Part shown: positions 1,277-22,000 of the stretch, in pieces
How the letters are laid out: each line of letters starts with the position of its first letter
Position numbering within the stretch: position 1 is the first letter of the stretch
DNA from: a virus
Length of the DNA: 24,939 nucleotides
Virus record (IMG/VR): IMGVR_UViG_3300020446_000076
Coordinates: 1 to 24,939 of that record
Reading direction: 5' to 3' (one strand)
Notes under the pieces: generated by a model
What the model was told of the DNA's origin: nothing
Seen by the model: only the letters and a program-made list of their open reading frames with translations
The model's database searches: none
Position numbers and translations under genes: made by a program

Positions 1277-3556
1277 GTGCCTGATTTCAAAAATATATTC
1301 AAACAGTTCAAAGACGACCTTATCGCAGATACTAAACGTACGATCTCTCAAGAAGCAAGTCGCGTGTATGCAGATGCCAAAAGCGCATTATTCAATAAAG
1401 CGACTGGCGGAAAAACAAGCAGTGTGTACGGGCAGGCCCAGTACAACAGAAAAGCCAGCATAAATCAATTTACACAACCAGAACCAAATGTGTTACACAA
1501 ATTTGCCACTTATAACACAGTGTTCACACTGTCAGCATTGAGCGAAGAGGAGTTACAAAATCCCAAAACATTTTTTCAAAGCAAACCACACGACGTCATT
1601 GCTCAGAGTTCAGGCATAGATGCCACTAAAAATTACAGGCAAGGTCCTCCTGGCCAAAGTGGCAGAACTGGAATTGACAAGCGAATTTTAGAGGACAACA
1701 CCAATTTAAGAAATAAATTGTACGATGCACAGATGGAGTTTCAAAAAAACAACGACATATATTTTAGAAGTGTGGAGATTTTGTCTGTACCAGGTTACAA
1801 TGAAAAAAGACGTCTGACCAGTGCCACAAAAGTAGATATTGTGATGGTCGAGCCATATGGTTTGACACTGTTGGAAAAAATCAAGGCGGCCGCGGCCAAC
1901 AACGGATATTTGGATCATTTGGATGCGGCGTATATGTTGACCATAGAATTCAAAGGTTTTGACGAAAATGGTCGCTCTGTGGACGTTGATCAGGCCACAA
2001 CCAAACGAGTTATTCCAGTCAAACTGGTCACAATGGACATAGATGTCAACAACAGCGGCACAGTGTATAATATTCAAGCAATTCCCTATAACGAATTCGC
2101 CTTCACAAATCTTTATATGTATCCAAGAACTAGCGCATCGTTGGTCAGTGGTACGAAAAAATTATCTGACATTGTGAATGAGTTGCAGAACGTATTGAAT
2201 GAGCAGAACAAACAAGAACAAAAAGGATCTTACAATCAATATCCAGACGAATATCAAATCACAATAGATGAACGATTAAATCCAGGTAAAGATTTAGACT
2301 TTTCTTTGATCACTGAAAGATCAATGATAAAAAAAATTACCGCACAAGACACAGGAGAGGATGCTTTTGTTTACGAAAGAATCAGAATAACGCCAGGCAC
2401 GAGTATATTGAAAACTCTTGAAGAATTGATGAAAGGGCATCCAGATTTCGGCGAAAAAAAATGGACCGAATGGACTGATGCAGTTTTGAGTGGCGCGGGA
2501 GATTCTTTCTTTCAATACTTTAAAATTAGAGCCTCCATCGTGCCAACAAAAGAATTTGATAATATCAGACAAACCAATAGGAAAAAAATACAAATTGTTG
2601 TGGAACCTTACTACATCAGTGCTATGAATATTGTCACAGCCGGTGTTCACAACGGAAATAGAAGCAAATCTTATGTAGCAAAAAAATACAACTACATTTT
2701 TACAGGTGCAAACGTTGATGTGTTAAACCTTGATATCAATTACAAAGTTGCATACTTTCAATCACGATTGAAAGATATAGAAGCCTCAGACAGCAATGCA
2801 GGAAAAGTTGGCCAAAAACAGAATGATGAAGGGGATCCAATTAAACCAGCATCACCGGTGCCACCTACAGCGGGAGATTATTTAAATTTGAAAAATGACG
2901 TTGGTATGGCCAATTCATCGAACGCAGGTAGCACTGGTAAAAGTTCAAAAGGTTCTGATCAATTTTTTGATGCGATCACAAATCCAACAGCAGATATGGT
3001 TATCCTTAGAATGGAAATAATTGGTGATCCTGCGTGGTTGGGCCAGAGTCAATTTGTTCCGCCAGCACCACGATTGACATCACCAGGCATCAGTACCGAT
3101 AAGAATCGAGGATACTTCACAGGCGGCGAAACAGAAGCGATATGGAATCCAACGTTAAAATGTTACAACGCTGAAGTGGCTGAACCCATCGTGGATTTGC
3201 AATTTGTTGTGCCAGATGATGTGGATGACAAACGTGGCATATACGATATCAGTAAATCTCAACGTGCTGTGTTTTCAGGTCTGTACAAAGTGTATCAAGT
3301 GAGGCATTTTATGTCCGATGGACAATTTAGACAAGAACTTACTATGGTAAGATACAACAATCAAGACAGAGATGTTACTCCTATGAAAAATAAATCAATC
3401 AACAAGTCAAAAGGGGTGGTAACTAGTGCTGTGTACAACAAAGCCGCAAACGCCAGAAAAGACAGCATTAATGCCCGTTCAAAACCCGGTGTGTATGACA
3501 CTGCTTCAAGAAGTAGAAGAGCAGTAGATATCACCGACACAGAAGGATCGTTTTAA
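1277..3556 (+). CDS. Large baseplate hub-like structural protein (gp27 position)
   Basis: The 759-residue protein starts at GTG 1277, one base after the gp53 stop. GGAG at 1267-1270 lies 6 bases upstream, and no early in-frame ATG exists. An N-terminal helical stretch (about 1-60) is followed by beta-rich blocks. One contains VDIVMVEPYGLTLLEKI (about 188-204); a C-terminal block contains FSGLYKVYQVRHFMSDG (about 659-675) followed by a QELTMVRY strand, a pattern seen in gp27/gpD-type hub domains. Its place directly before spike gp5 also suggests that it is the hub ring holding the spike. T4 gp27 is only about 391 residues, so this would be a much enlarged hub. I do not recognise clear sequence identity to T4 gp27, so the hub role is inferred from position and fold-like motifs. 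Confidence 0.6.
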   Translation: MPDFKNIFKQFKDDLIADTKRTISQEASRVYADAKSALFNKATGGKTSSVYGQAQYNRKASINQFTQPEPNVLHKFATYNTVFTLSALSEEELQNPKTFFQSKPHDVIAQSSGIDATKNYRQGPPGQSGRTGIDKRILEDNTNLRNKLYDAQMEFQKNNDIYFRSVEILSVPGYNEKRRLTSATKVDIVMVEPYGLTLLEKIKAAAANNGYLDHLDAAYMLTIEFKGFDENGRSVDVDQATTKRVIPVKLVTMDIDVNNSGTVYNIQAIPYNEFAFTNLYMYPRTSASLVSGTKKLSDIVNELQNVLNEQNKQEQKGSYNQYPDEYQITIDERLNPGKDLDFSLITERSMIKKITAQDTGEDAFVYERIRITPGTSILKTLEELMKGHPDFGEKKWTEWTDAVLSGAGDSFFQYFKIRASIVPTKEFDNIRQTNRKKIQIVVEPYYISAMNIVTAGVHNGNRSKSYVAKKYNYIFTGANVDVLNLDINYKVAYFQSRLKDIEASDSNAGKVGQKQNDEGDPIKPASPVPPTAGDYLNLKNDVGMANSSNAGSTGKSSKGSDQFFDAITNPTADMVILRMEIIGDPAWLGQSQFVPPAPRLTSPGISTDKNRGYFTGGETEAIWNPTLKCYNAEVAEPIVDLQFVVPDDVDDKRGIYDISKSQRAVFSGLYKVYQVRHFMSDGQFRQELTMVRYNNQDRDVTPMKNKSINKSKGVVTSAVYNKAANARKDSINARSKPGVYDTASRSRRAVDITDTEGSF

Positions 3557-6156
3557 TGAGTGTCAAAGATTATTTACGGGGACACACATCAACACCCAAA
3601 GCACCACACACAGACACTTCGTGGGCCGCGGAAAACCCAGGTCCATATATTGGTATTGTAAAAGACAATGTGGATCCGTTGAAAATGGGCAGACTGTCAG
3701 TTAATATTCCTGCTTTGTCAAAGACCACAGAACCAACAGCGACAAATTTGATCACATGTGACTATCTTGCTCCTTTTTACGGAGCCAAAGATGCAAACTT
3801 TAATCAACCAGGTTCCACCAAATACACAGGCAGTCAGCACAGTTATGGCTTTTGGGCAGTGCCACCTGACATAGGCACACGAGTATTGGTGATATTTGCG
3901 GAAGGCAAATTGAATCAAGCATTTTGGATTGGATGTGTACAGGAACCAGTCACCAATCACATGATTCCAGGTATTGCGGCCAGTGAAAGAACCTGGGATA
4001 AAAGTTCTGGAGGACCTGCTGGCAAGTATAGTTCTTCCGTAGACAAACAAAAAACATACGGCACTCTCAATGTGCCATCAGGCGAACTCAACAGGGCCAC
4101 TCCAGAATCATCGCCATTAGGAGACTATGACTCATTCCTGAAACCCATACACCCGTTGGCAGACATTTTGGCCACACAAGGTTTGATTGGTGATGATGTG
4201 CGAGGAACCACAACAAGTTCGGCACGTAGAGAATCGCCCAGCCAAGTATTTGGAATGAGCACACCTGGTGCCAAAGACCTATCCAGCACCAAGCAGTTGG
4301 TAGGAACCAAAGACGCTTTAAAAGAAGACTATGTAGCCAGAGGTCCAGGTCATACTTTTGTGATGGATGACGGAGACGAGCAGGGTGAGAACCAACTGAC
4401 AAGGTTACGAACAGCATCAGGACACCAGTTGTTAATGCACGACACAGAGGGTGTGGTTTACATTGCCAACGGATCAGGAAAAAGTTGGTTGGAAATGAGT
4501 CCAGAAGGAAAAATTTACATCTACGCACAAGACGGATTTAATTTGAGAGGTGACGGAAACTTTGATCTACACTCAGGTGCTGACATAAATTTCCATGCCA
4601 AAAATGACATCAAGTTCACAGCAGAAGGCAGTGTGGTCAACAACGCAGAAGGCTATGTGATGAGCATAGGCAAACAGGGTATATTCAGTAACACCACAGA
4701 AGGCAGTATCAGATTCAATGCTCGCGACGGAATATCGTCATACACAGAGGGCACACAATTATGGGGAGCCAAGGGGCAGATTCATCTTGCCGGCACACAG
4801 GTACACTTGAATTCCACAATACCTCAACCCACCTGGGGACCCAGTTGGTTGACACCAGAACAGATTGGCATAATCACAGATGAATCACAGAACGATGTGA
4901 ACATCACAGTGGGTCCTGGAGAAATATTAGAAGCCAACACAAGAAAAACCAAAACCACAATCAGCAACATGGTAACACATGAACCATTCACCAGAGCACC
5001 ATCTGGCGTGGTTGAAACCGTGACACAGTTTGAGGATCCTGTTGAATGGAAACGTTTGAGTCAAACTCCTGGCACGGTGGAGTACATGGCACAGAAAAAC
5101 AGAGAAAGCAAAAATGCCCACGTGAGAGAACTGCAATATTTTACTGATCTTGAAAGGTACACAATGAATCAAAGCAAACCAGCCAGTCTGAAAAACGTTC
5201 CTGTGTCTATAGGAAAATTTGCTTCGTTTGCCAAAACCAATGTCAAAGTCAAGAAAAAATTAAAATTAAACAAATCTGATATCAAAACTTTACAAGATGC
5301 TGGCGTGTATGATGCCAGAGAGGTCTATAGAACAGGACAGACGCCTGAACAATATGTACAAGCCAACAGCAAAGTGATACAGAGCAAAATGACACGGACG
5401 TTGAATGACATGAAAGACGCATTTCCTGGCATCAACAAGGCCATAGATGGAATCAAAGAAGGTGACTTGATTAAACTTGATACCAGTGCCATCAGCAAGG
5501 ATCTGATCAACACACTGAAAAACGGTGGAGGTTTCAAACTTGACACATTTGCAAAAAACTTAGACGTGGGCAGAGTCAAAGAAATAGCAGGACAATTTGC
5601 TGGACAGTACAATGAAATATACAATGTGGTAACATCAATTCCAAACATGTCCAAAGATCAAATAAGCGGCATAATGATCAGCAAAGTCACAGGTGGACAC
5701 TTGACCAGTTTGAGCAAAGAAGCAATTTTCAACGCAGGTTCAAAATACCTAATGACCAACGCTGGCAAATTTTTCAGCAGAGGGTCTGCCAACAACATTC
5801 CACCAAGTTTGAGAGGTACAGCCAAAGGCAGACTCATGCAGGGTGCCACATCTATCAAAGATCATATTGGCAGTTTGGCCAGCAAATTCAAAACAGGTGG
5901 TTTGAGTGGCGGATTTGCCGCAATTGGACAAGGACTTAAAAAGTTTTTCAGTGATCAAAGACTCAAAGAAAACATTGAAAAAATTGGAGTTTCACCTAAG
6001 GGAATCAACATCTATCAGTTTAAATACAAACACAGTGATGGCACATATCAAGGTGTGATGGCGCAGGAGGTGCCTTGGGCCAGTGAAATTACTGATACAG
6101 GCTACTATGCTGTTGATTACAGCAAAGTTGATGTGGAATTTAGGAGATTGCATTAA
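3556..6156 (+). CDS. 5: Baseplate spike gp5-like: OB-fold, beta-helix, C-terminal S74 chaperone
   Basis: The 866-residue protein is the central spike under the hub. Residues 30-150 form the gp5/VgrG OB-fold; YIGIVKDNVDPLKMGRLSV lines up with the start of T4 gp5 (FVGVVEDRMDPLKLGRVRV). Residues about 262-420 are short repeated beta-strands (SGADINFHAKNDIKFTAEG and similar), fitting a trimeric beta-helix needle. Residues about 430-795 look mixed or helical and are unassigned. Residues 799-866 match the peptidase S74 intramolecular chaperone domain: SDQRLKENI, then IYQFKY, GVMAQEV and AVDYSKV. Family knowledge predicts self-cleavage just before Ser799, with Lys804 as partner. The T4 lysozyme domain between OB-fold and needle is absent. 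The start overlaps the preceding stop (TAATG), and GAAGGA at 3542-3547 is the ribosome binding site. Confidence 0.88.
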   Translation: MSVKDYLRGHTSTPKAPHTDTSWAAENPGPYIGIVKDNVDPLKMGRLSVNIPALSKTTEPTATNLITCDYLAPFYGAKDANFNQPGSTKYTGSQHSYGFWAVPPDIGTRVLVIFAEGKLNQAFWIGCVQEPVTNHMIPGIAASERTWDKSSGGPAGKYSSSVDKQKTYGTLNVPSGELNRATPESSPLGDYDSFLKPIHPLADILATQGLIGDDVRGTTTSSARRESPSQVFGMSTPGAKDLSSTKQLVGTKDALKEDYVARGPGHTFVMDDGDEQGENQLTRLRTASGHQLLMHDTEGVVYIANGSGKSWLEMSPEGKIYIYAQDGFNLRGDGNFDLHSGADINFHAKNDIKFTAEGSVVNNAEGYVMSIGKQGIFSNTTEGSIRFNARDGISSYTEGTQLWGAKGQIHLAGTQVHLNSTIPQPTWGPSWLTPEQIGIITDESQNDVNITVGPGEILEANTRKTKTTISNMVTHEPFTRAPSGVVETVTQFEDPVEWKRLSQTPGTVEYMAQKNRESKNAHVRELQYFTDLERYTMNQSKPASLKNVPVSIGKFASFAKTNVKVKKKLKLNKSDIKTLQDAGVYDAREVYRTGQTPEQYVQANSKVIQSKMTRTLNDMKDAFPGINKAIDGIKEGDLIKLDTSAISKDLINTLKNGGGFKLDTFAKNLDVGRVKEIAGQFAGQYNEIYNVVTSIPNMSKDQISGIMISKVTGGHLTSLSKEAIFNAGSKYLMTNAGKFFSRGSANNIPPSLRGTAKGRLMQGATSIKDHIGSLASKFKTGGLSGGFAAIGQGLKKFFSDQRLKENIEKIGVSPKGINIYQFKYKHSDGTYQGVMAQEVPWASEITDTGYYAVDYSKVDVEFRRLH
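5950..6153 (+). other. S74 (endosialidase-type) intramolecular chaperone domain of gp5
   Basis: This is the C-terminal 68 codons of the spike gene. It begins at AGT 5950 (Ser799) in SDQRLK, the conserved Ser-Asp-x-Arg-x-Lys start of the domain, with Ser and Lys five residues apart as in the reported catalytic pair. Such domains help trimeric beta-helices fold and then cut themselves off. The domain follows a Gly-rich segment (GGLSGGFAAIGQGLKKFF). Confidence 0.82.
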
Positions 6157-6569
6157 TGGCATACGGAGATAACACAAATAATTCAAATGACGCACAAGGC
6201 GTTACTTTTAAAGGGTTTTCATCAAGGGCCGACAGGCAGAACTTTAAGGTCTATGATTTTGAATGTGCTAAACAGGATCTCATAAATCGTTTGTCGGTAC
6301 GCAAGGGCGAAAGAGTCGAGAACCCTGAGTTTGGTACGATCATATATGATGCACTGTTTGAACCATTCACAGAAGATCTCAGAGATGCTATTCTTGATGA
6401 TGTCACAGAGAATTTGAACGCAGATCCACGCATAGCCACAGAAGATATTGTGGTCACAGAAGCAGACAAAGGCATAGCCATACAGGCCACTATACGGTTT
6501 GTGCCCTTGGATATCACCGAAAAATTACAGTTCTCTTTTGACGAAAACAGCCTATTGCGTCTATCTTAA
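6156..6569 (+). CDS. 25: Baseplate wedge protein gp25
   Basis: The 137-residue protein belongs to the GPW/gp25 family, which links the inner baseplate wedge to the first sheath ring and is shared by contractile tails, pyocins and T6SS (TssE). The diagnostic stretch is RKGERVENPEFGTIIYDALF (residues about 49-68), followed by DPRIATEDIVV and a C-terminal beta-strand region. Length matches the family (T4 gp25 is 132 residues). The start is fixed by TAGGAG at 6141-6146 and overlaps the gp5 stop (TAATG). It is the last gene of the first packed operon; a 42-base gap with a late promoter follows. Confidence 0.92.
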   Translation: MAYGDNTNNSNDAQGVTFKGFSSRADRQNFKVYDFECAKQDLINRLSVRKGERVENPEFGTIIYDALFEPFTEDLRDAILDDVTENLNADPRIATEDIVVTEADKGIAIQATIRFVPLDITEKLQFSFDENSLLRLS

Positions 6570-6611: not shown

Positions 6612-9600
6612 ATGGCCACAACAGATAGACAAAACAGATTATTAGTAGCCGAGGATTGGCGTAAGATTTATCAGGCATTCCAACAGGCAGATTTCAAAAG
6701 TTACGATTTTGAGACCCTGCGCAGAACAATGGTGGCATATCTACGTGAAAATTATCCAGACGATTTCAATGACTTTGTAGAGAGTTCAGAGTATGTGGCT
6801 CTTATAGATTTAATAGCCTACATTTCTCAAGCACTTTCTTTCAGAGTAGATTTGAATGCCAGAGAAAACTTTTTAGAAACAGCAGAAAGACGTAACTCAA
6901 TTTTGCGATTGGCAAGATTGATCAGTTACAATGCCAAAAGAAATCAACCTGCCACGGGACTTTTGAAAGTGGATTCAATTTCAACTACACAAGATGTTTT
7001 TGATTCAACAGGTACAAACCTTTCCAATACCACTGTGATTTGGAACGATTCAGCCAACAACAATTACGGAGAACAGTTTACTGCCATATTGAATGCGGCC
7101 AACCAAACAGGACAATTAATTGGCAAACCAAGAGAATCAGACACCATTGGTGGAGTAGCAACAGAAGTTTATACATTAAGTTCAAATCAAAATGATTTGC
7201 CAATTTTTACATTCAGTGCAAACATTGGCGGTAGTAATAGAAATTTTGAAGTGGTGCCTAGCACTATCACAGATTCAGAATCCATTTATGAATCTGCTCC
7301 TGTAAATGGTACAGGTTTGACATACACATACAGATCAGATGGATCTGGTGACAGTTCCAACAACACAGGTTACTTCTTCTTGTTTAAACAAGGCACCATG
7401 ACATATGAAGATTTTTCAGTAGACACAGCAATCACAAACTATGTGAAAAGTTTTAATAAAACAAATGTCAACAATTCAGATGTGTTTTTATATAAATTTG
7501 ACGAGTTTGGTCAAATATTGGAACAATGGAAACAGGTGCCTGCGCTATCAGGCAACAATGCTATCTACAACAGTTTGGCAAACTCAGAAAGAAATATTTA
7601 CAATGTAGTCACAAAGGTGGGAGACACAATTGATCTAGTGTTTGGAGATGGAAACTTTTCCAACTTGCCAATTGGTACTTTTAGACTGTACACCAGAAGC
7701 AGTGACAATGCCAGATATGCAATCCAACCTGCTGACATGACCAACATACAGATTGTAGTACCTTATGTGGACAGAAACGGTGCTCAACAAAATTTAACAG
7801 TGGCAATGAGCCTTCAGGCATCTGTGTACAATGCGGCCGCCACAGAATCAAACGATTCAATTAAAGAAAAAGCCGCACAGGTGTACTACACACAAAACAG
7901 AATGATCACAGCAGAGGATTACCAGATTGCTCCTTTGAGTGCTTCACAGGAAATTATTAAAGTGAGAAGTGTCAACAGATCAGCATCAGGTATTTCGAGA
8001 GCCAAAGAAGTATTGGACCCTACGGGTGCTTATTCAAATGTCAATGTGTTTGCGGAAGATGGCATACTTTACAGAGAAGAAAGCACACAACAGTTTACAT
8101 TTCAGTTCACAAACGACAACACCATCAGCGCGACAATTGATAATGATGTAGAGACGAAAATTAAACAAGCATACTCAAGACATTTTTATTACTTGAAATA
8201 CGGCACTAAAGACTTGAGCAGTTTGAATGCCACGTGGAATTCCACAACCACCAGCACAAATACCAACACAGGATATTTCACATCAGGTGGTGCCTTGGTG
8301 GTAGGTGATTCTGCCACATCCAATTTCAAATACGCAAAACAAGGTGCTTTGATCAAATTCACATCACCTGACTCTAGAGAATTTTTAAACAACACACTGG
8401 TCACAGCAGGCACAGACAATGCTGAGGATAGGGCGTGGGCCAAAATAGGAGCAGTGGAAGGTGATGGCGCCAACGCAGGTGTTGGAAATTTAGAATCAGG
8501 CTTGGGTCCTGTGACTTTGGCACAAATCATACCAAACGGTGCTATCGTTGACAGTGTGATTCCCAATTTGACCACAACATTTAGTGATGCTTTGAAAGTA
8601 GATTTGATTGATCGTATTGGAGCATATGAAAACTTTGGGTTGAGATACGACATAGATTCAGAGAGTTGGAAAGTTATTACAAGCACAAATTTGAGCGCCA
8701 GCAGTGTGTTCAGTCTGGGCAACACAGGTGATGTCACAGATGCCAATTTAGATGCTAGTTGGTGGTTTAAATTCACCAATGATGGAAGCACATACACTGT
8801 GACATATAGAAGTTTAGACTATATTTTTGAATCAGAAGGACAAAACAAGTTTCATTATGATTCACAAGAAAAAATTTATGATTACAAAACAGGTGCCACT
8901 GTGTATGACACGGTAAAAATTTTAAAGACAAATTCCATTGTGAGCACAGGTAACGGAATAGGTTACCCATTGATTTGGGCAGTCACAGATACAGTCACAG
9001 AAGCAGATGGATTTCAAGACAATAGAAAAATTAAGGTGGGATTCTATGACAGCGATGATGACGGAGTAGTTGATAATCCTGAACTGTTTGATATCTATGT
9101 TGAACCAAACACCAGCACAGCCACAAAATTTGTATTTTTTGAAAAATATTTAAGTTACAACAACATTGAACGATTTAGACCTTACGCGGCCACAAACTTT
9201 ATTGTGACACAAAACGAATCAGATATTAATCTAAACACCTCAGCGTACACAGACGGCCAACTGTTTTACTTTTACGACGAATCAGAAGATGTGATCAAAA
9301 GTTACAGTTCAACCACTAACACACTTTCAACATCAACAGATTACATTGCGAGACGTGGTAGATCAGGTATTGACTTTCAGTACAAACACCACGCAGGGCA
9401 GGAAACACGTATTGATCCTGCTGTGTCAAACATCATTGATCTGTATGTGTTAGAAAGATCTTATGACAACTTGTACAGAATTTGGTTACAGGACGGTGGA
9501 CCAAAACCAACTGCTAGTACAAGTGACCAGTTGAGAATAAGTTATTCTTCATCATTGAATGCAATAAAAAGTTTATCAGATCAAATCATTTATCATCCTG

Positions 9601-10094
9601 TAAAATACAAAATACTGTTTGGCATAAATGCAGATGAAAATCTACAGGCCACATTCAAAATTGTTAAAAATCCAAGCACTAAGATTTCTGATGCCGTGAT
9701 CAAGACTAGAGTGATAGCGGCAATAAATGAATTTTTTGCTTTAGATAATTGGGATTTTGGAGACAGTTTTTATTTTACAGAACTAGCGGCGTATGTACAC
9801 CAGCAGTTGGCACCCGATTTGCTTACACTGTTGATAGTACCAAATCAATCTGGACAAGGTTTTGGGTCTTTGTTCCAAATAGATTCAGCCGCAGACGAGA
9901 TTTTTATCAGTGGGGCCACCGTTGATGATGTTTCAATTATTTCTGCTGTAGGTGCCAACCAATTGGTTGCATCAGGTACAGTGGTGACATCAACATCTTC
10001 AACCACGTCAATGACAACATCAGGTTCATCAGTGTCAGGTTCCACTACCGCAGGATCCGGTTCTAGCACCGGCAGTAGTGGGGCAGGATACTAA
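6612..10094 (+). CDS. 6: Baseplate wedge protein gp6 (baseplate J-like), enlarged
   Basis: The 1160-residue protein is the gp6 wedge subunit, which joins neighbouring wedges into the inner ring. The N terminus has the family pattern FVESSEYVALIDLIAYISQA (about 56-75) and VDLNARENFLETAERR. Residues about 417-440 (IKEKAAQVYYTQNRMITAEDY) carry the Ala...Tyr-Thr-x-Asn-Arg-Met-Ile-Thr-x-Glu-Asp-Tyr pattern typical of baseplate J proteins. The C-terminal arm (about 999-1100) has ILFGINADENLQ and FGDSFYFTELAAYVHQQLAP. T4 gp6 is 660 residues; much of the extra length seems to lie between about 490 and 960. Residues 1122-1160 are a Ser/Thr/Gly-rich tail ending in GAGY, and its last codons hold the ribosome binding site of the next gene. 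No Shine-Dalgarno site precedes its own start; ATG 6612 was chosen because it follows the promoter and gives the family N terminus. Confidence 0.88.
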   Translation: MATTDRQNRLLVAEDWRKIYQAFQQADFKSYDFETLRRTMVAYLRENYPDDFNDFVESSEYVALIDLIAYISQALSFRVDLNARENFLETAERRNSILRLARLISYNAKRNQPATGLLKVDSISTTQDVFDSTGTNLSNTTVIWNDSANNNYGEQFTAILNAANQTGQLIGKPRESDTIGGVATEVYTLSSNQNDLPIFTFSANIGGSNRNFEVVPSTITDSESIYESAPVNGTGLTYTYRSDGSGDSSNNTGYFFLFKQGTMTYEDFSVDTAITNYVKSFNKTNVNNSDVFLYKFDEFGQILEQWKQVPALSGNNAIYNSLANSERNIYNVVTKVGDTIDLVFGDGNFSNLPIGTFRLYTRSSDNARYAIQPADMTNIQIVVPYVDRNGAQQNLTVAMSLQASVYNAAATESNDSIKEKAAQVYYTQNRMITAEDYQIAPLSASQEIIKVRSVNRSASGISRAKEVLDPTGAYSNVNVFAEDGILYREESTQQFTFQFTNDNTISATIDNDVETKIKQAYSRHFYYLKYGTKDLSSLNATWNSTTTSTNTNTGYFTSGGALVVGDSATSNFKYAKQGALIKFTSPDSREFLNNTLVTAGTDNAEDRAWAKIGAVEGDGANAGVGNLESGLGPVTLAQIIPNGAIVDSVIPNLTTTFSDALKVDLIDRIGAYENFGLRYDIDSESWKVITSTNLSASSVFSLGNTGDVTDANLDASWWFKFTNDGSTYTVTYRSLDYIFESEGQNKFHYDSQEKIYDYKTGATVYDTVKILKTNSIVSTGNGIGYPLIWAVTDTVTEADGFQDNRKIKVGFYDSDDDGVVDNPELFDIYVEPNTSTATKFVFFEKYLSYNNIERFRPYAATNFIVTQNESDINLNTSAYTDGQLFYFYDESEDVIKSYSSTTNTLSTSTDYIARRGRSGIDFQYKHHAGQETRIDPAVSNIIDLYVLERSYDNLYRIWLQDGGPKPTASTSDQLRISYSSSLNAIKSLSDQIIYHPVKYKILFGINADENLQATFKIVKNPSTKISDAVIKTRVIAAINEFFALDNWDFGDSFYFTELAAYVHQQLAPDLLTLLIVPNQSGQGFGSLFQIDSAADEIFISGATVDDVSIISAVGANQLVASGTVVTSTSSTTSMTTSGSSVSGSTTAGSGSSTGSSGAGY

Positions 10095-10095: not shown

Positions 10096-13000
10096 GGTTG
10101 ATCAACCCACAAATCCACTAACAAATCAAGAAGTAGTCCAACAGGGCACAGCAGAACTACGTAGAACTGTTCAGCACTTGCCTGCTTTTTACAGAACAGA
10201 CAACAACCAAAGATTTTTGTCCAGCACAATGGATGCTTTGGTACAAAAAGGCAGTCTAGAAAGATTAGACGGTTATGTGGGAAGAAAGGATGCCTACACT
10301 AGAAAATCCAGTGATAGATATCTCACAGCAACCAGCAGGGATAGGTCTGCTTATCAACTAGAACCTGCTGTCACATACACCAACAGAGACACCACATCTG
10401 TAAATCCTGAAGACCAAGTTAAATTCACAGGCACATACGATGACTACATAAATCAGATCAAATATTTTGGTGGAAAAGTAGACAATCACGATAGACTTAA
10501 TAAAGAAAAAATTTACAGTTGGAATCCCGCTGTCGATTATGACAAACTAATCAATTATAGAGAGTACTATTGGTTGCCTGAAGGGCCTAATGCATTAGAA
10601 ATTGATGTGGTCGGTCCAGGAGCAGTGGTCGAATATAAAGTCACCAATGTGGTGAAAGGTGCTTACAATTTTAGCATACAAGATGGAACAAACAACCCAA
10701 TACTGAAACTTTACAGAGGTAACACATACAAGTTTAATATAGATGCAAAAGGTCATCCTTTCTATATAATGACAGAACCCTACAAAGATCAGTTATCAGC
10801 AGACGGATCAACATCTACGCTTTATACCACAGGTGTCACAAACAACGGAACAGATTCAGGCATAGTTACATTCACAGTGCCCACATCAGGTCCTAGCACA
10901 CTTTACTATCAGTGTGGCAATCACGATAATATGAATGGTGTGTTACAGATTGAAGACATCCAAACCACATCTAAAATTGATCCAGACAAAGATATCATTG
11001 GTGCTAAAAATTACAGTTTGAGGACATTAGATCTATCAAACGGAATGAAAATAAAATTTACTACTACCAAAGTTGATACCGCTTGGCAAAACAAACAATA
11101 CTATGTGGAAGGCGTTGGCGACTCGATCACTTTGACAGATGCCAGTGAATTGATTGCACCGGGCAGTTACAGTGAAGAATTCACAGTGGGATATGACACA
11201 TTTGTTTACGATTCGCAACCTTATGCCAAAGCACTTCACAGAGCAGAAGCATTAGACTACATCACTATCAAAAGAGATTCTAGAGATCGCAATTCATGGT
11301 CAAGATACAATAGATGGTTTCACAGAAGTGTGATAGAGGAAACTGCCAGAGTTGGCGGTTACACACCTGACCTAGATGAATCAGACAGGGCCAAAAGACC
11401 CATCATTGAATTCGATTCAGGCCTGGCACTTTATAATCACGGCACAGTGGCCAAAGATCATATCACTGTGATTGACACAGTGACCACGGATGCATTCAGT
11501 GACGTGGTAGGAAAAACAGGATTTAATGTGGACAGCATTTCTTTAGAAGATGGCATGAGAGTGATATTCACAGCAGACACAGATTCATTGGTCGCCAACA
11601 ACATTTATACAGTTAAGTTTATCACAGCCACTGACAGTTCGCAAGTGATATCTTTGACCAAAGCCGCTGATGGAACACCTGCTGACGGCGACAGTATTTT
11701 CGTTGAAAAAGGCACAAACAATCAAGGCAAAACATTCCACTATGAAAGTGCAACAAAAAGTTGGAAAACATCGCAGGCAAAAACAGGCCTAAATCAGCAA
11801 CCGTTGTTTGGAATGTGGGATAACGATCACGTCAGTTTTGACGACGCAATCAAATATCCCAACAGCACATTCACAGGAGCAAAAGTTTTTGAATACGCAA
11901 CCAGCGACAGTGCCACAACAGATACAGTGTTGGGCATCAAAGTCAAATACAAAACAATTAACAATGTAGGTGACATAGTTTTTGACAGTGATCACACCAA
12001 CGGGACATTCACATATAAAAATGAAAAACAGACTGTTTCAAAAAATCTAGCAGAAGGACATTTACACTACACCACAGGTAGAACCACGCACAATTCACGA
12101 AGTGCTTGGATTGAAAGATTAAACGAAAGCAAACAACGAGTAATAAGAACTTATCAAGCAGATGACGTGGAAAAAAAACTGTTTGCCATAGACTTTTACA
12201 AGGACAGTGTATCATTAACGGATTTAGAAATTGCAGTGCGTGTGAATGGTGTGAACAAAAGTCAAGGCATAGATTACACACTAGTAGATGGCACAGTTAA
12301 CAAGTATGTGCAGTTCACAGAAGAATTATCAGTGGGTGACCAAGTGCGAATTAAAGGTTACAGTGCCGCCGACAAAGTGGCAGACAAAGGCATATACGAA
12401 GTGCCTGAAAACATTGAGACCAACGCGGAGAACAGTCAGATAGGTACATTTACATTGGGTCAAATCACAAAACACGTGCAAGACATACAGGACAAAAATA
12501 CAGATGTCACAGGTGCCATTCCAGGTGTCAGCAATCTACGTGACAAACCCGATGCAAGATTGAAAGGTGGAACAATACATCAACATCAAGGGTCTTTATT
12601 GCCCGCGGTGTTTGGTTTGATTGATCAACAGGCCAATGTGATAAGATCTATTGAGTATGTGAACAAGGCCTATGAACAATGGTACAACAGTTTTTTAACC
12701 AATGCATTGGGTACAGTGTATGAAGGTGTGGCTCGTGACAGAGTAGACGAAATCATACTGTCAATAGTGGAAGGCAAAAACAGCAAGTCACCATTTTACT
12801 ACGAAGATATGGTTGGATATGGAGAAAACGTATCCACTAGGAGTTACACGGTAAAAGATGATTTAGAAACTGATTATGCCATAGATAGCCAACACAGTAT
12901 GACTGCTCTAGGAAATCGTGCAGTGTACGTGTATCTAAATGACGTGCAATTGATCCAAGGCACAGATTACACATTCAGCACAACAGACGATAGTGTTAGC

Positions 13001-16000
13001 ATTTTAACAACTCTGGCAGACGGCGACAAGATCCTAATCAAAGATTATGCCGACACAACTGGAAGTTTTATTCCTCCAACTCCTACAAAGTTGGGAATGT
13101 ATCCAAAATTTAAACCTGAATTAATTTCAGATGACACATATAGGACCACAACTAATGTGATTAGAAAGCACGATGGTTCTTTTATCAAAGCATACGGTGA
13201 TGAAAGAGATGATCTAATCTTGGAACTAGAAAAAAGGATATACAACAACTGTAAAACTGCCTATGATGCCTCACTGTTGGATATCAATGATGTTGTGCCA
13301 AGTGCATTCACATCAACAGAATACACGTTGCTCGAAGTAGACGATGTTATGAGCACAGACTTTTTTGTGTGGGCAGGTAGGAACAATGTACAATACATCA
13401 ACAACACTGCATTCACAGAAGGATCGCCTTTCACCTACAATTATTCATCATCCACAGATAGAATTGCCGGAGAAAAACTACCAGGGTATTGGAGAGCCAT
13501 ATACAAATATTTCTATGACACAGACGCACCACATCTAAGGCCATGGGAGATGCTGGGTCACAGTGAAAAACCAAGTGATTGGGAAACCACATATGGTCCC
13601 GCACCATATACAGCAGGCAATGATGTGCTGTGGACAGCGATAGCCACGCACACAGGTAGATATGCCAAACCTCAAATCAAAAGTTATCTACCAGTGGATG
13701 CATCTGGAAATCTTTTGGATCCCATAGCGGCAGGCTTGATTGGCAATCATGATGTGCCTGGACGTACACAGAGTTGGAAGTTTGGTGATCAAGCACCAGC
13801 AGAAACTGCCTGGCGTAGATCCAGTGCTTATCCGTACACGGTAATTAAAACTTTGGCCTTAACAAAACCTGCTAAATTTTTCTCAATATTTTTTGACAAC
13901 AGCAGATTGAGTACAAACACTGCTGGCAACTACATCGACACAGACACCGGCATAAGACAGACACTGGCCAAAGGCAAATATCATTTGGAAACTGAAACCA
14001 ACGCAACCACAGGAGTTACAACAAGATATGCCACTGCTGGTTATCAACCTTTGGTGGTGAACTATTTGATATCACAGAATTTGGATGCTAAAACTTTCTG
14101 GTATGACAAAATGAAAGGACTGACCGTACAACTGGCATACAAGTTGGGTGGGTTTACGGACAAAGACAATATTAAAATTCTCACAGATTCCGTCAGTCCA
14201 GGATCAACATCAGGTAGTAAATTTGTGCCAGACGAAAACTATAAGATATTATTTAGAACATCAAACCCTGTGGAAACTTTTGACTATTCAGGGGTGTTGA
14301 TCGAGAAGAACACAGATGTTTCACAAGATGGATCAACACTGTTAGGTGGTTACAAAGTTTTAGGTTACTCAACAACCAAGCCGTATTTCAAATTCAATTA
14401 CCCAATCAAATCTGTACGAGGCAACAAAGTGCGTGTGATCAATTCAGAAGTGGCCACATACAAGAACTATCAAGAAGCAGTACAGACTATTCCGTACGGA
14501 TATGTGTTTGACACCAAACAGGAAGTGGCAGACTTTCTGTCAGGTTACGGACATTGGTTGGAAGATCAAGGTTTTCGTTTCAACAAATATTCTAAGGAAC
14601 TCAAAGAAACACTGAACTGGTCGAATGCTATAAAAGAATTCCTATACTGGACAGAACAAAACTGGGCACCAGGGTCAGCAGTCACAGTTTCTCCTGCCGC
14701 AGACGGATTTGAACTAGACACGAACAATAGTATTGTGGGCAAATTGAAAAGCATTGCTGGCGACTACTCAATGCTGGACGCAGGCGGTAGAAAACTTAGC
14801 ATAAGAGAAATCAGTACAAAACGCATAGGAAAAACTTTTGATATCTCAATCAAGAGTTTGGATGTGGGACTTTTTAATATATCATTGAACACAGTCCAAA
14901 AAGAACACATAATATTATTTGACAATAAAACTGTTTTCAGTGACATAATATATGACGCTTACACAGGTTTTAGACAAGAACGTATGAAAGTTGTGGGTTG
15001 GAAAACAGCAAACTGGAACGGCGATTACTATGCTCCTGGTTTTGTGTTTGACAGTGCTGAGGTCAATTATTGGTCACGAAATACAGATTACAAAATTGGT
15101 GACACAGTTGAATATCAAGGCAAATTTTATGTGGCCAAGGCAAATCATACAACCAATGATAAATTTGAATCTGCCAATTGGACTCTGAAAACAGAGAAAC
15201 CCCAACCACAGTTGATACCAAACTTTGACTACAAAATCAGTCAATTTAACGATTTCTACAACTTAGAAACCAACAACTTTGATGAGTCACAAGAGCAACT
15301 GGCACAGAGATTGATAGGTTATCAAAACAGAGACTATTTAGAAAACCTGTTTGTTAGTGATGTGTCACAATACAAATTTTATCAAGGTTACATCAGAGAA
15401 AAAGGCACACAGAACGCAATAGATAAAATTTTAAAAGCCAAATACGAAGGTTCTGATATCACTTTAAATTTATATCCTGAATGGATGATAAGAACAGGTA
15501 GATTTGGAAACGTAGATGCCAGAGAAAACATCCAAATACAATTAAAGGAAAATGAAATACTAGCAAATCCTCAGAGTTTAGAATTTTATGAAACTTCAAA
15601 CTTTACAAAAAATTACGCAAGAAGTTTAGCCATAGCCAAACCAGACTTCTATTATGATCCTGTGGATTACGACACAGCCACAACTTTTGCCAAATATGAT
15701 TACAGCCAAGCAGGATATGACAGAGACTCTGTGATGCCATTCAAAACAGCAGGTTATGTACAGCCAAGTCAGGTACAACACACAGTATTTGATCTTGAGG
15801 AATTATTGGATCTAGATGTGCAATCTTTTGAAAGAAATGATTTAATCTGGGTGGCCAACAAACAAAATCTAGATTGGGACGTGTACAGATTGACCAATAC
15901 TGGTAGACAGATTGCCACATTGAGAGCAGTGAATGGTAGCACTCAAATGGAAATTGAGTTCAGCAGTTCTCATAACCTTAACGCTCAATCAAATAGAACC

Positions 16001-19000
16001 AGTGCTGACTATCTTGCTATTAGAAATGCTGAAGTTGAAGACCTGAATCGTGTGTTTGAAGTCAAAAGGGTTGTAGATCATAAAACTATTCTCGTGGATT
16101 TCGCAGGTGCCACAGGCGGATTGCCTAATGCTGAGGATGAATCCACAATTGGCAGTTATGGTAGTCTCTATATCTTTAGATCTGTTAGATTCAATTCGAT
16201 GAATAATGTTAATGATGTTATTAGTTACGATACGTATCAAGACAAAGATGAATCAAGGCAGATTCCTGGAGACAAAGTTTTCACCGATGCAGACGCTTCA
16301 GGCTTATGGCGTGTGTACGAAAAATGTGATCCATACACTGTGAAAAGACAACTGTCACCAAATTCCGAAGTGGCAGATCAAGATTTTGGTTGGAGAATTG
16401 TGGCCAGAAACGACGGCAGAACATTGATTGCATCAGCACCTACCAAAGGTCAAGGTGAGATACATTTCATGTTCAGAACTTCTGCGTCACCAGGAACCGG
16501 TTATGAGAGCCAAGCCGCTGTCACAATGACAGACGGTGATGACAACACAGGACGTTTAGGTTATTCTCTGTCGATCAGCACAGATGAAAACTTTGTGATA
16601 GCAGGAGCACCTTTCACTAACACAGTTGGATTGGATGGCAGTAGTAGATACAGTGATCAAGGTTTGATTAAAATTTTTGTTTGGAATCCCAGCACTTTCA
16701 CATATGGCATACTGAACACAATTAATCCACCAACAGATCAGGCTGGCCAGAACTTTGGTTGGAGTCATGCAATAGCAGAACCAGGCGCAAGTTCAGGCAG
16801 AGACACACCAGCAAAATATCTTTTTGTGGGTGCCCCAGGTTTGGATGATGGTTCTTCAACCAGCGGTGGACGTGTGTACATGTACGAATGGGGTGTTGGT
16901 TCAGACGGATCAACATATGACACCTGGACACAGAATTTAACAATCAGCAGTAATGAAGTAGGATCAGGCAAACGTTTTGGTAACGCCATTGCTGTGAATG
17001 ACAACGGTGATATCTTAGCAGTGAGTTCAACTGCGCCAGGCAAAGCGGGTATGGTTGAAATATTTAGAAGAACTTCGCAGAGCAATGACGACAGTGTGGA
17101 GCACAGTTTTACGCATGTACAGACACTGTCAGGTGTTGCCAGTGACGGATCCAGTTTAAACACACAATTTGGTGACAGTATTGCGATGAGCAAAGACGGA
17201 ACAACTTTGGTTATTACGGCACCAGGCGCGGATAAAACAGATCAGGCAGACGCAGGTGCAGTGTATTATTACAAATGGGACGCAGACGGCGACAGCACAT
17301 TGGCTTATACATTACAGCAGACAATAAATGCACCAGACACAGCCTCTAATATGCGTTTTGGTAGCACAATAGATATCGACAACAGCGGTACTAGATTAGT
17401 AATAGGTGCTGAAAATTTCGGAAATTCAAGAACAATGGCATTCGATTCAGGGGCCACCACGTTTGATTTACAAGATACAGAGTTCAGTGATTTCAACACA
17501 GGTTCAGGTGCGGCGTACACAGCCACTAGATACAATACAGAATTTTTGATTGATGATAGATTGGTCACAACCAGTGTTACAGCAAATGATGATTTTGGAC
17601 GTGGTGTTTGTGTCACAGATAACACAGTGTTTGTGGGAGCACCGGACGACGAAGGCAACATTGACATCTCAGATGGCAGTTCATACATTCAAAACGATGG
17701 TACGGTGACAGTGTTTGATTTGACCAAATCGGGAGAATATGCTTGGAAAAATATTGTGACTGAAACTCCGCTTATGGACGTATCAAAACGGGGACAGGTT
17801 TTTGATTTTGATACCAGAAGCAACGAAATCAGAGATTATTATGAACTTTATGATCCTGTGAAAGGACATTTTCCAGGTGTCGCAGATAGAGAAATCAATT
17901 ACAAAACAGTTTGGGATCCAGCAGTATACAACAACGGTGATGGTGCCAATTTTAAAACCACTTGGGCAGAAAAACACGTGGGCGAAGTATGGTGGGATCT
18001 ATCCCGTGTGAAATGGTTGTGGTACGAACAAGGAACTTTAGAATACAAAACAAATCATTGGGGAAAAACTTTTCCTGGATCAGAGATACACATTTACGAA
18101 TGGATAGAATCTACATCTTTGCCAAGTGAATTTATAGGCGGTACACCTTTACATCCAGATGATACCAACTACACAATTAAACAGAGATACAGCACACAGT
18201 TGGATGCCTTTGTTGATTACTATTACTACTGGGTCAGAAACACCACAGTGTTACCAGCCAACAGTGTTGTTAGACGTGACAGCACCACAGCGTCAGTGGC
18301 TAATTTACTTTCAAATCCACAAGGACTGGGACACAAATGGTATGCACCAACAGACACTCAAAGTATGTTGATTGCCAATGTGAGAAATCTTGCCAACTCA
18401 CACATAGTTTTAAATGTTGACATTAGAACAAACAATTTTGATGCCACGGCACACTCGGTATGGAAACTGGCCAGAGAAAGTGACCCTGCTTACCGTCCAG
18501 GAACTCAAATCGAACAACGTTGGTGGGACAGTTTGGTAGGTAAAAACATCGCTGGTGATCTTGTACCAGATATCGCTTTGCCTGTGAATGAAAGATACGG
18601 TAACAATATTAGACCAAGACAGAGTTGGTATGTGGATAGATATGATGCCTTAAAAGAAGTAATTGACTATGCCAACACAGTGTTGAAGAAAAAACAACTG
18701 TCAGGCACAATCAGTCTGGACAATCTTAACAAAGCAGATCCAGAACCAACAGCGGCCAGCCTAGAATGGGATGCCACAGTTGACACATACGCAGAATTAA
18801 CCTACATCAACACAGCAGATCTGTCAGGCACAGTGAAATATTTGGTCAAAGCAGACGAAAACGCAGACGGTTTTTGGTCAATACACACATGGGATGGCAC
18901 AGAATGGACTAGAACTAAATTACAAGGTTACAACACAGGAGCATATTGGAGTTACGTAGACTGGTATGGTACTGATCCAGAGGTACACGAGATGATACAT

Positions 19001-22000
19001 GATGAGAATACTCCTATTGATGCACAGGTAACGTATGAATATGAGTTAGATTCACTTGACCTAGCAGTTGGTAAGCACGTGAAAGTTACACAGGCAGATA
19101 CAGGTGGTTGGAAACTGTTTATGAAGACTGCTTCAGGTTACACCAACGTAGGAACAGAGAATGGGACTATTAGATTAAGCACAAAATTATACGACTACAC
19201 ACAAGATGCCACAGGGTTTGCGGGTGGTGACACATTTGATGACAATTTCTTTGACCAGGAACCTACAATCGAAACTAGAAATGTATTGACAGCACTGAGA
19301 GATGACCTATTCATTAACGAGTTAGCAGTTGAATACAACAATTTGTTCTTTATTGGTTTGAGAAAAGTGTTGGCTGAACAAACTTATGTGGACTGGCTGT
19401 TCAAAACCGCATTTGTAAATGTGACGAACACAGTGAGAAAATTGGATCAACGTAAAAATTACACATCAGGCACAGACAGTTGGGTGGAAGAATACATTAA
19501 CGAAGTCAAACCTTTCCATACAAAAATCAGAGAATACAAATTGGGGTATGAAGGCACAGACACCGAAGATGGTATATTCACAGATTTTGATAATCCTCCG
19601 TTCTACGACACAGAGCAGAGCAAAATAAGAACATTGAACGTCAACAGCGACAGTGACAAACTTACAGAATATCCATATCAGATGTGGTATGACTATCATA
19701 AAAAATATGTGAGTTCAATAACAGTAAGTTATGGTGGCACAGGTTATGAGACAGCACCCACAGTCGCAGTGATTGGTGGCACAGAAGCATCAACAGGTCC
19801 GTTCCAAATACAAGGAACCAGCAACAGAGGCGCAACCTCCGGCACTTACGGATACTACTATCCGTTGTTCACCAGTGAGCAACGTGCCAAAACTTGGGAT
19901 ACTCAAAACAACAGCGGTTCAGGCACTGCAACAGAGTTTAGTTTTGACGAATACTCAGGAACGTTCTGGATGCCAGATGGAACAACCAACACAGGACAAA
20001 GCACACGTTCAACTGTGTACAAATTATATGACACGCCTGACACGTCAGCGGCCACTGCCACTGCCACAGTTGTGAATGGATCTGTCACAAAAATCACACT
20101 CACAGGACAAGGCAGGAATTATACCACAACACCTACAGTGGTACTCACAGGTGGAAAGACAGATGGTACGACACCAACAGATACAGCCAGAGCATATGTC
20201 AATTTGAGCAATGATCTAGTCCGAGATTTCAACACCACAATTAAATTTGACAGAATCCAATCAACACATTCTGTGGTAGATTGGACAGCCAACACAGCAT
20301 ATGCATACGGACAATTGATTAGATACAACAACGAATTGTACAAGGCCACAGATCCATTCACATCCAGCACAAAATTCTCAGACAACAAAGGAAAAGTGTA
20401 CAAGGTGTATGGTGACGAAACAGATTTAACTGCGGCTGACAGAACAGCAGGTATGTATGCTCCAACATCAGCAATGCCAGGCAATGAACTGTCACAGTTG
20501 ATGTCAGGCATCGATTACGGTGGCACTATGGTCACAGGATTACTGTTCACACAAGATCAAGGTTGGGACAGATCGGGATGGTATGATTATGGTTGGGATC
20601 ATTTTGGAGCATCAAACATAGTGGCATTCAGAGGTGATGGATCAACCACAACATTTACTTTTGATTCTGCTCCTGCCTCAACAAAAGTTTATCAAGTTTA
20701 CACAACTATTAATCACGTGAAAACTAAAACTGCTGACTCATTCAGAGGTGACGGTTCTACTACCACATTCACTTTAAGTTCAGCACCAGCAGACGGCACT
20801 TTGGTTGAATTTATACCATTTGACGATGACGGTGTGTTGACTCCCACAGATGACAGAACACTGGACACGTTATTATCAGGCGGATTGTTTAACACTGCGT
20901 TGGGAACTGCGGCCAGTGATGTTATCACAGACGGTGACGGATTCGTTACAACAGAAACCAGTTACGCACCTGAAGAAGCAGTGCCAGGACAGATATTTGA
21001 CACTTTAGACATCAAAGTTTATACATCACCAGAATCAGGTGTGCCATTTATCACAGAAAAATTATATCACGGTGATGCCACAACCACTGTGTACAGCACT
21101 GGAGAATATCCAGGCACATTGGCATCAGTGACAGTTTCGGTTGATGGCTTAGTGAAAAGATTGACCACAGACTTCACGGTTAATGTGGCCAACAAGACAG
21201 TCACATTTGTCAGTGCGCCAGGACTTGGGGCAGTGATATCTATTAGAACATTTGCTATATCGGGAGAAAATTACAGAGTGTTGGATCAATACACAGGTGA
21301 CGGGTCAACAGTGACATTTACCACGTCAACTAGAGGTGAATTCAATCTAGATTCCACTTCCAGTGATATGTACATCACAATAGATGGTGTGCCTACCACA
21401 GCATTCTCGACCACAACAACTGCCAACACAATCACAGTTACATTTAATTCTGCTCCAGCGGCAAGTTCATTTATACAGATTGCTGGATTCAACAAATCCA
21501 CAACCAGCACAAGAAGTTTCGCCAGTATCAGAAATGAGTTGATACCTTTTGGCGGAGGAGCCACAAGATACACTATGGCATTTCCGCCGGGAGAAGATCC
21601 TGGCTCAAGTATACCACTGACATTTCCGCCAGGCTCAATTGGTCCTTTCTCAGGCTTGACAATGATTGAGGTCAACGGCAAAATGTTACGTGGTCCAGAC
21701 ATCACTTACTATATTGGTGACGGAAGCACTTACACTTACGGAGTGGCGGTAGGATTGGGTGACGATTCAACAGTGGATCCAGCCAAAACAATCACAGCAG
21801 AATCACAAGTGAATGTGTTTGTGAATGGCTCTGAGAAAAATTTAAACACACACTACACTGTGGACATTGCAAATAACAATGTGGTATTCACTGCCGCTCA
21901 CGTGCCAACTGCCACAGATGTTATTGCCATAGAAACTCTAGTTAACAATCATTACAGAGTGGAAGGCACAGACTTTATTTTGAATACTAGTCAAATTGCC

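Follow-up and report, generated by a model that had tools for sequence, protein, structure and literature searches.

The presence of metal in phage tails is under active discussion, and iron has been proposed in the tail fibres of marine phages (PMC11705849). Among the blue copper proteins, rusticyanin from Acidithiobacillus ferrooxidans (1cur/1rcy) is a free periplasmic electron carrier, and amicyanin is known from Paracoccus (1aac); the residue that follows the first histidine ligand, Ser86 in rusticyanin and Asn54 in amicyanin, tunes the potential of these proteins (PMC12723479). No description of a cupredoxin module in virions was found in the open-licence literature, although absence there is not proof. 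We investigated a domain of this type in IMG/VR virus record IMGVR_UViG_3300020446_000076, positions 1 to 24,939, studied as one strand; this whole stretch of 24,939 nucleotides is termed the window. We think it reasonably likely that the domain is a metal-binding cupredoxin, the predicted metal probably being copper, which serves as a tail surface module for contact and not as an enzyme.

Tail genes and the giant structural protein

We identified part of a T4-like tail module in the window, with genes assigned by ORF calls and by Pfam and PHROG matches (Table 1). The first base of the giant gene is also the final base of the gp6-like gene, and two more genes lie 3' of the giant gene. The gp25- and gp6-like genes are immediately upstream, reproducing the gene order 25-6-7 with the giant gene in the T4 gene 7 position. 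It is from this order that the giant protein takes its label of baseplate protein, and from which we infer, on good grounds, that it is a baseplate component; no match to the gp7 family was obtained for it in Pfam or PHROGs. Its own family, phrog_10938, is annotated just as "virion structural protein", and homologues were identified in the cultured jumbo phages PA5oct, MIJ3, RaK2, CBB and SCTP-2.

Table 1. Features of the window, with positions counted from its first nucleotide.
Feature	Position	Strand	Evidence or remark
gp53-like wedge gene	976-1275
Structural gene	1277-3556
gp5/VgrG-like hub gene	3556-6156
gp25-like baseplate wedge protein	6156..6569	+	PF04965 above its cut-off
gp6-like baseplate wedge protein	6612..10094	+	phrog_10646, E 6e-287; jumbo phage homologues
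Giant virion structural protein, 4290 aa	10094..22966	+	ORF; phrog_10938 matches along the protein
Inserted segment, about residues 172-299, ~125 aa	10607..10990	+	Absent from jumbo-phage homologues
Cupredoxin domain (predicted), residues 179-289	10628..10960	+	AlphaFold, PDB structure matches, profile matches
His221, predicted N-terminal metal ligand, GHPF motif	10754..10756 (CAT)	+	Aligned with rusticyanin H85
Pro222, conserved second-sphere residue	10757..10759	+	Replaces Asn/Ser of amicyanin and rusticyanin
Cys274, predicted metal ligand	10913..10915 (TGT)	+	Aligned with rusticyanin C138, amicyanin C92
His277, predicted metal ligand	10922..10924 (CAC)	+	Aligned with rusticyanin H143, amicyanin H95
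Met280, predicted axial metal ligand	10931..10933 (ATG)	+	Aligned with rusticyanin M148, amicyanin M98

Several further domain matches were noted in this region. At 5950-6072, the C-terminus of the gp5/VgrG-like hub, instead of a fibre, matches peptidase S74 (endosialidase chaperone). The giant protein has two matches to the CBM_5_12 carbohydrate-binding module (15071-15160 and 20282-20371), one above and one below the Pfam cut-off, and its PA5oct-type homologue is labelled chitin-binding type-3 in one record. FG-GAP_2 repeats in three stretches of the giant protein (16391-18190, E 1.6e-19, best repeat about 17135-17266) suggest that this phage tail protein contains a beta-propeller of integrin-like type, and PF03906, the T7-type tail fibre N-terminal domain, is matched above its cut-off at 21119-21256, close to the C-terminus.

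Sequence relatives and predicted fold of the inserted domain

Judged by sequence comparison, the domain is a clean insertion in the N-terminal part of the giant protein, as blastp matches flanking it nearly abut in MIJ3, SCTP-2, CBB and RaK2. The sequence-only reading had reported a type 1 copper ligand set of His221, Cys274, His277 and Met280, with amicyanin-like spacing, and all four residues were confirmed in the 4290-aa ORF, in which positions 10646-10957 encode residues 185-288 in frame. The residues occur in the cupredoxin order of His, Cys, His and Met, with the last three within one loop, and their C-x2-H-x2-M spacing is that of C92, H95 and M98 in amicyanin. The likeness to amicyanin holds for this loop; the closest sequence match for all four ligands is instead rusticyanin. 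With 4 Cys, 57 His and 43 Met in the 4290 residues, the composition of the giant protein predicts 0.0005 CxxHxxM motifs against the one observed, ruling out a chance motif. Cys274 is the sole cysteine within the first 1000 residues, and no C-x(2-6)-H-x(2-5)-M motif was found in the remaining proteins of the window.

Searching PDB sequences with the single domain sequence returned just a chance globin match, and a profile was therefore needed. A broad profile (A2), built from 70 phage and bacterial domain members, matched blue copper proteins nearly exclusively, with nitrite reductase (3e-4), plastocyanin (0.004) and amicyanin (0.005) followed by rusticyanin, pseudoazurin and azurin. This was the only informative profile comparison; the narrow profile A1 against the PDB, and hhalign of A1 with rusticyanin and of A2 with azurin, gave ambiguous outcomes. 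The NCBIfam models for amicyanin, halocyanin, plastocyanin, rusticyanin and pseudoazurin each match several A2 members (18 of the 70 for amicyanin), and the window domain itself matches no NCBIfam model, including amicyanin TIGR02657, up to E 0.1. Its score against the Pfam At5g54830-like domain, PF25489, is 27.2-27.3 bits as a fragment and 23.5 bits in a 400-aa piece, for a cut-off of 27.

Using reference sequences verified at full length against their PDB entries, we aligned rusticyanin and amicyanin to the domain through the A2 profile. All four rusticyanin ligands and the last three of amicyanin fall on the predicted ligands (Table 1). Amicyanin His53 is displaced by two residues because the aligner pairs two prolines, and the assignment of the first histidine therefore rests on the rusticyanin alignment together with the fold. 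The domain does not correspond fully to either protein: relative to rusticyanin (TIGR03095), the ligands are in register and the loop is C-x2-H-x2-M, not C-x4-H-x4-M, and the asparagine that follows the first histidine in amicyanin is Pro222 here.

AlphaFold, supplied with an alignment of 32 sequences, modelled the domain as a Greek-key beta-sandwich of cupredoxin type with a mean pLDDT of 88.1 and a pTM of 0.82, and the solved structures that match it best are blue copper proteins, in line with the sequence-only reading. Among the Foldseek matches listed were rusticyanin, copper nitrite reductase, auracyanin, AcoP, plastocyanin and pseudoazurin, alongside laccases and other multicopper oxidases. 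VIA comparisons with blue copper proteins gave Z scores of 9-10.5, with rmsd values of 1.9-2.7 A over 90-96 of the 111 residues, headed by the N-terminal domain of copper nitrite reductase (Z 10.5), auracyanin A (Z 10.0; 2.3 A, 94 residues) and rusticyanin (Z 9.8), and including an azurin carrying the amicyanin loop (Z 9.3). In the model, the secondary structure is as expected, with the first histidine just ahead of a strand, the cysteine at the end of the next-to-last strand and the methionine just ahead of the last strand. Taken with the rusticyanin alignment, this fold would bring the four side chains together on one metal. A model of residues 1-420 of the giant protein (pLDDT 40) was too poor to place the domain and was set aside. 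The domain model additionally matches the BFVD entries A0A481Z6J5, A0A481YVH3 and A0A481Z7Q7 (E 1e-9 to 3e-7), which are "Beta-sandwich" proteins from Pithovirus and Marseillevirus assemblies.

The identity of such a metal has to be weighed against zinc or another cytosolic metal, held as a purely structural staple in a site of which copper is no natural part. Free copper is generally known to be scarce in the cytosol, the compartment in which virion proteins fold; the ligand set accepts other metals, a Zn-substituted azurin (1xb8) being among the structural matches; and the proline after the first histidine is atypical. A His2-Cys-Met set with a loop of this kind is, however, typical of type-1 copper proteins (PMC4059628), and the aligned relatives whose metal is known are all copper proteins. 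We regard a site dedicated to zinc or another cytosolic metal, without a natural role for copper, as rather unlikely.

Distribution of the module and conservation of its ligands

We identified the module (tblastn, E 1e-3) in 344 phage records, nearly all of them from phages of marine Synechococcus and Prochlorococcus and a few from pelagiphages and other phages; weaker matches were found in Methylophilales phages. It is often the C-terminus of gp9, the "baseplate wedge tail fiber connector" (phrog_677, matched by the window domain at E 5.5e-23 over profile positions 304-410 of 412). Other carriers are annotated as proximal long tail fibre or subtilisin-like protease, have collagen-like repeats next to the module, or are lectin-like, and the short-tailed phage P-GSP1 has the module as well. 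The sequence-only reading had mentioned cupredoxin-like folds in other marine phage structural proteins; the feature is not peculiar to the giant protein, and is common to hundreds of marine phage records and to predicted bacterial lipoproteins. A second, highly diverged cupredoxin-like domain, retaining all four ligands, was noted in the gene after gp9 (a wedge subunit or fibre) in L350 (S-ShM2, 3315-3653), L351 (S-SM1), L355 (syn9) and L359 (Syn33).

In bacterial genomes, the module occurs in larger proteins that look secreted and in small ones whose signals, on inspection by eye, are lipoprotein-like. Some of the small proteins consist of this same cupredoxin domain (L165 2854-3300, L171 2896-3315 and L179 2788-3234, from Bdellovibrionales and Bacteroidetes assemblies), and such proteins may have given rise to the phage module or be its counterpart. 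Recent capture of a host plastocyanin was rejected: a GHPF motif is particular to the family, plastocyanin is no nearer to it than other cupredoxins are, and its bacterial relatives resemble lipoproteins.

The four ligands are under strong selection. Across 273 distinct sequences, His221 is conserved as H in 266, Cys274 as C in 262, His277 as H in 260 and Met280 as M in 265. The complete set was found in 80/81 members of a first sample of viral loci, for which some search seeds contained ligands, and conservation was likewise observed with a ligand-free seed (residues 224-272; 48/52 distinct sequences complete) and with a domain-free seed from the flank (residues 300-420), which retrieved 80 contigs, all 80 containing the domain and 70 of their 72 distinct sequences having complete ligands. 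A seed bias toward ligand-bearing relatives was thus rejected. All 20 domains detected by tblastn in isolated phages were complete, some scoring just 10-30 bits, as were 88 of 93 family clusters at 70% identity. The homologues thus bear out the sequence-only reading, in which the ligands were not expected to vary freely.

The proline after the first histidine is conserved to a similar degree, in 269/273 distinct sequences and in all 25 bacterial ones, and the family would therefore form its own branch of blue copper proteins. On this sequence evidence, the His-Pro family is a distinct subfamily, in which, given the replacement of Asn or Ser by Pro, a standard blue spectrum is not to be presumed.

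Where ligands are lost, they tend to be lost jointly. At least three are missing from 4 of the 93 clusters, a frequency matched by none of 100,000 shuffles, which ignore relatedness. Joint losses of three or four ligands in a domain that is still recognisable include the sets DSTM, DSTK, SSYM, YSFM, YATM and HASI (found in L023 3001-3402, L193, L259, L305, L326 and L312), and single or double changes such as MCHM and RCYM occur too. A metal-free beta-sandwich, comparable to the Ig-like decorations of phage tails and retaining its ligand residues for packing or by descent, would account for these natural ligand-less members and for the recurrence of the domain across many unrelated tail proteins. 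In contrast, packing alone does not predict that ligands are lost together, whereas all-or-none loss fits a shared metal site. The ligands are, moreover, among the most conserved residues at about 30-50% identity, with the histidine and cysteine codons of the flank-seeded set varying synonymously while the residues are kept. We thus consider a domain that never holds metal distinctly unlikely. Members that keep the domain without ligands nonetheless imply that it can do something without metal, and its main task may be metal-independent.

Nature of the site and comparison with known systems

The cupredoxin model, the homology to blue copper proteins, the conservation of the ligands and their concerted loss together underlie our reading of a metal site, and the clean insertion, the gp9 C-terminus, the fibre, protease-like and lectin-like carriers and the bacterial lipoprotein relatives underlie that of a tail module. 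Against this reading, the proline after the first histidine departs from amicyanin and rusticyanin, some members keep the domain without ligands, and the window domain has no NCBIfam copper model match and lies at the edge of PF25489. In the proposed scheme, the cupredoxin domain inserted in the N-terminal part of a giant T4-type baseplate protein would form a type-1-like mononuclear metal site from the four residues. Inside the cell, this site would be apo or hold another metal, with copper taken up after lysis, and the site of the released virion would most probably be occupied by copper. The domain would then be a compact, metal-stabilised and presumably surface-exposed tail module, which from its location may contact the host envelope or neighbouring tail parts, with no enzymatic role.

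Bound copper might alternatively act as bait for a host protein, either one that acquires copper or a copper protein of the envelope, in the manner of the Ferrojan/Trojan Horse iron model. The module is on host-touching tail parts in many marine phages, and there is an iron precedent proposed for marine phage tail fibres (PMC11705849). No host receptor is known, however, and buried type-1 sites are generally known to give up copper poorly, so we judge this very unlikely. That the domain senses redox state or transfers electrons at the tail tip is barely credible: nothing supports it beyond the type-1 ligands, with their rusticyanin/auracyanin-like fold, and against it no redox partner is encoded within the window, the potential-tuning position of amicyanin and rusticyanin is a proline, and the insertion is missing from jumbo-phage relatives that have the same baseplate genes.

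For a metal-binding contact module, the distribution suggests that the infection machinery of many marine phages bears a metal, which is probably copper. That baseplates and fibres across many lineages of marine tailed phages bear cupredoxins truly loaded with copper, and that this copper is needed for adsorption or triggering at the host envelope, is a tentative extension that we hold to be possible, if rather improbable; were it true, there would be a copper-dependent step in phage infection. Should the site hold metal, this module, which is very common in marine phage tails and mostly belongs to proteins labelled "connector", "tail fiber" or "hypothetical", would become a testable metalloprotein, with the natural ligand-less variants as ready-made metal-free controls. 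It would constitute a second metal chemistry in phage tails, alongside the proposed iron sites, and would tie phage infection to the ocean supply of trace metals.

The proposed iron sites, HxH motifs in T4 gp37 and as suggested for Alteromonas phage R22Y (PMC11705849), similarly involve metal held by histidines in phage tails, but have octahedral iron in trimeric fibres, whereas here a single folded domain has a His2-Cys-Met set. PF25489 matches weakly across most of the window domain and is matched by 25 of 32 close members; it is named after a plant protein, and the window domain is just at its cut-off. Amicyanin has the same C-x2-H-x2-M ligand loop, but has Asn54 after His53, and the window domain neither matches its model nor has a methylamine dehydrogenase partner, and is located in a virion protein. 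Rusticyanin shares the cupredoxin fold, the NPTL...G...GHxF stretch and the four ligands in register, and differs in its existence as a free carrier, its longer C-x4-H-x4-M loop, and Ser86 where the phage family has proline. The C-terminal domain of cyanophage gp9 is the same domain with the same four ligands, although the remainder of gp9 is absent from the giant protein, in which the copy is inserted near the N-terminus. The cupredoxin fold and its ligands are not new in themselves, but no account of their use as a virion module of wide occurrence, marked by a second-sphere residue of its own, was found in the open-licence literature; with metal in the site, the His-Pro subfamily would bring blue copper proteins into virion structure.
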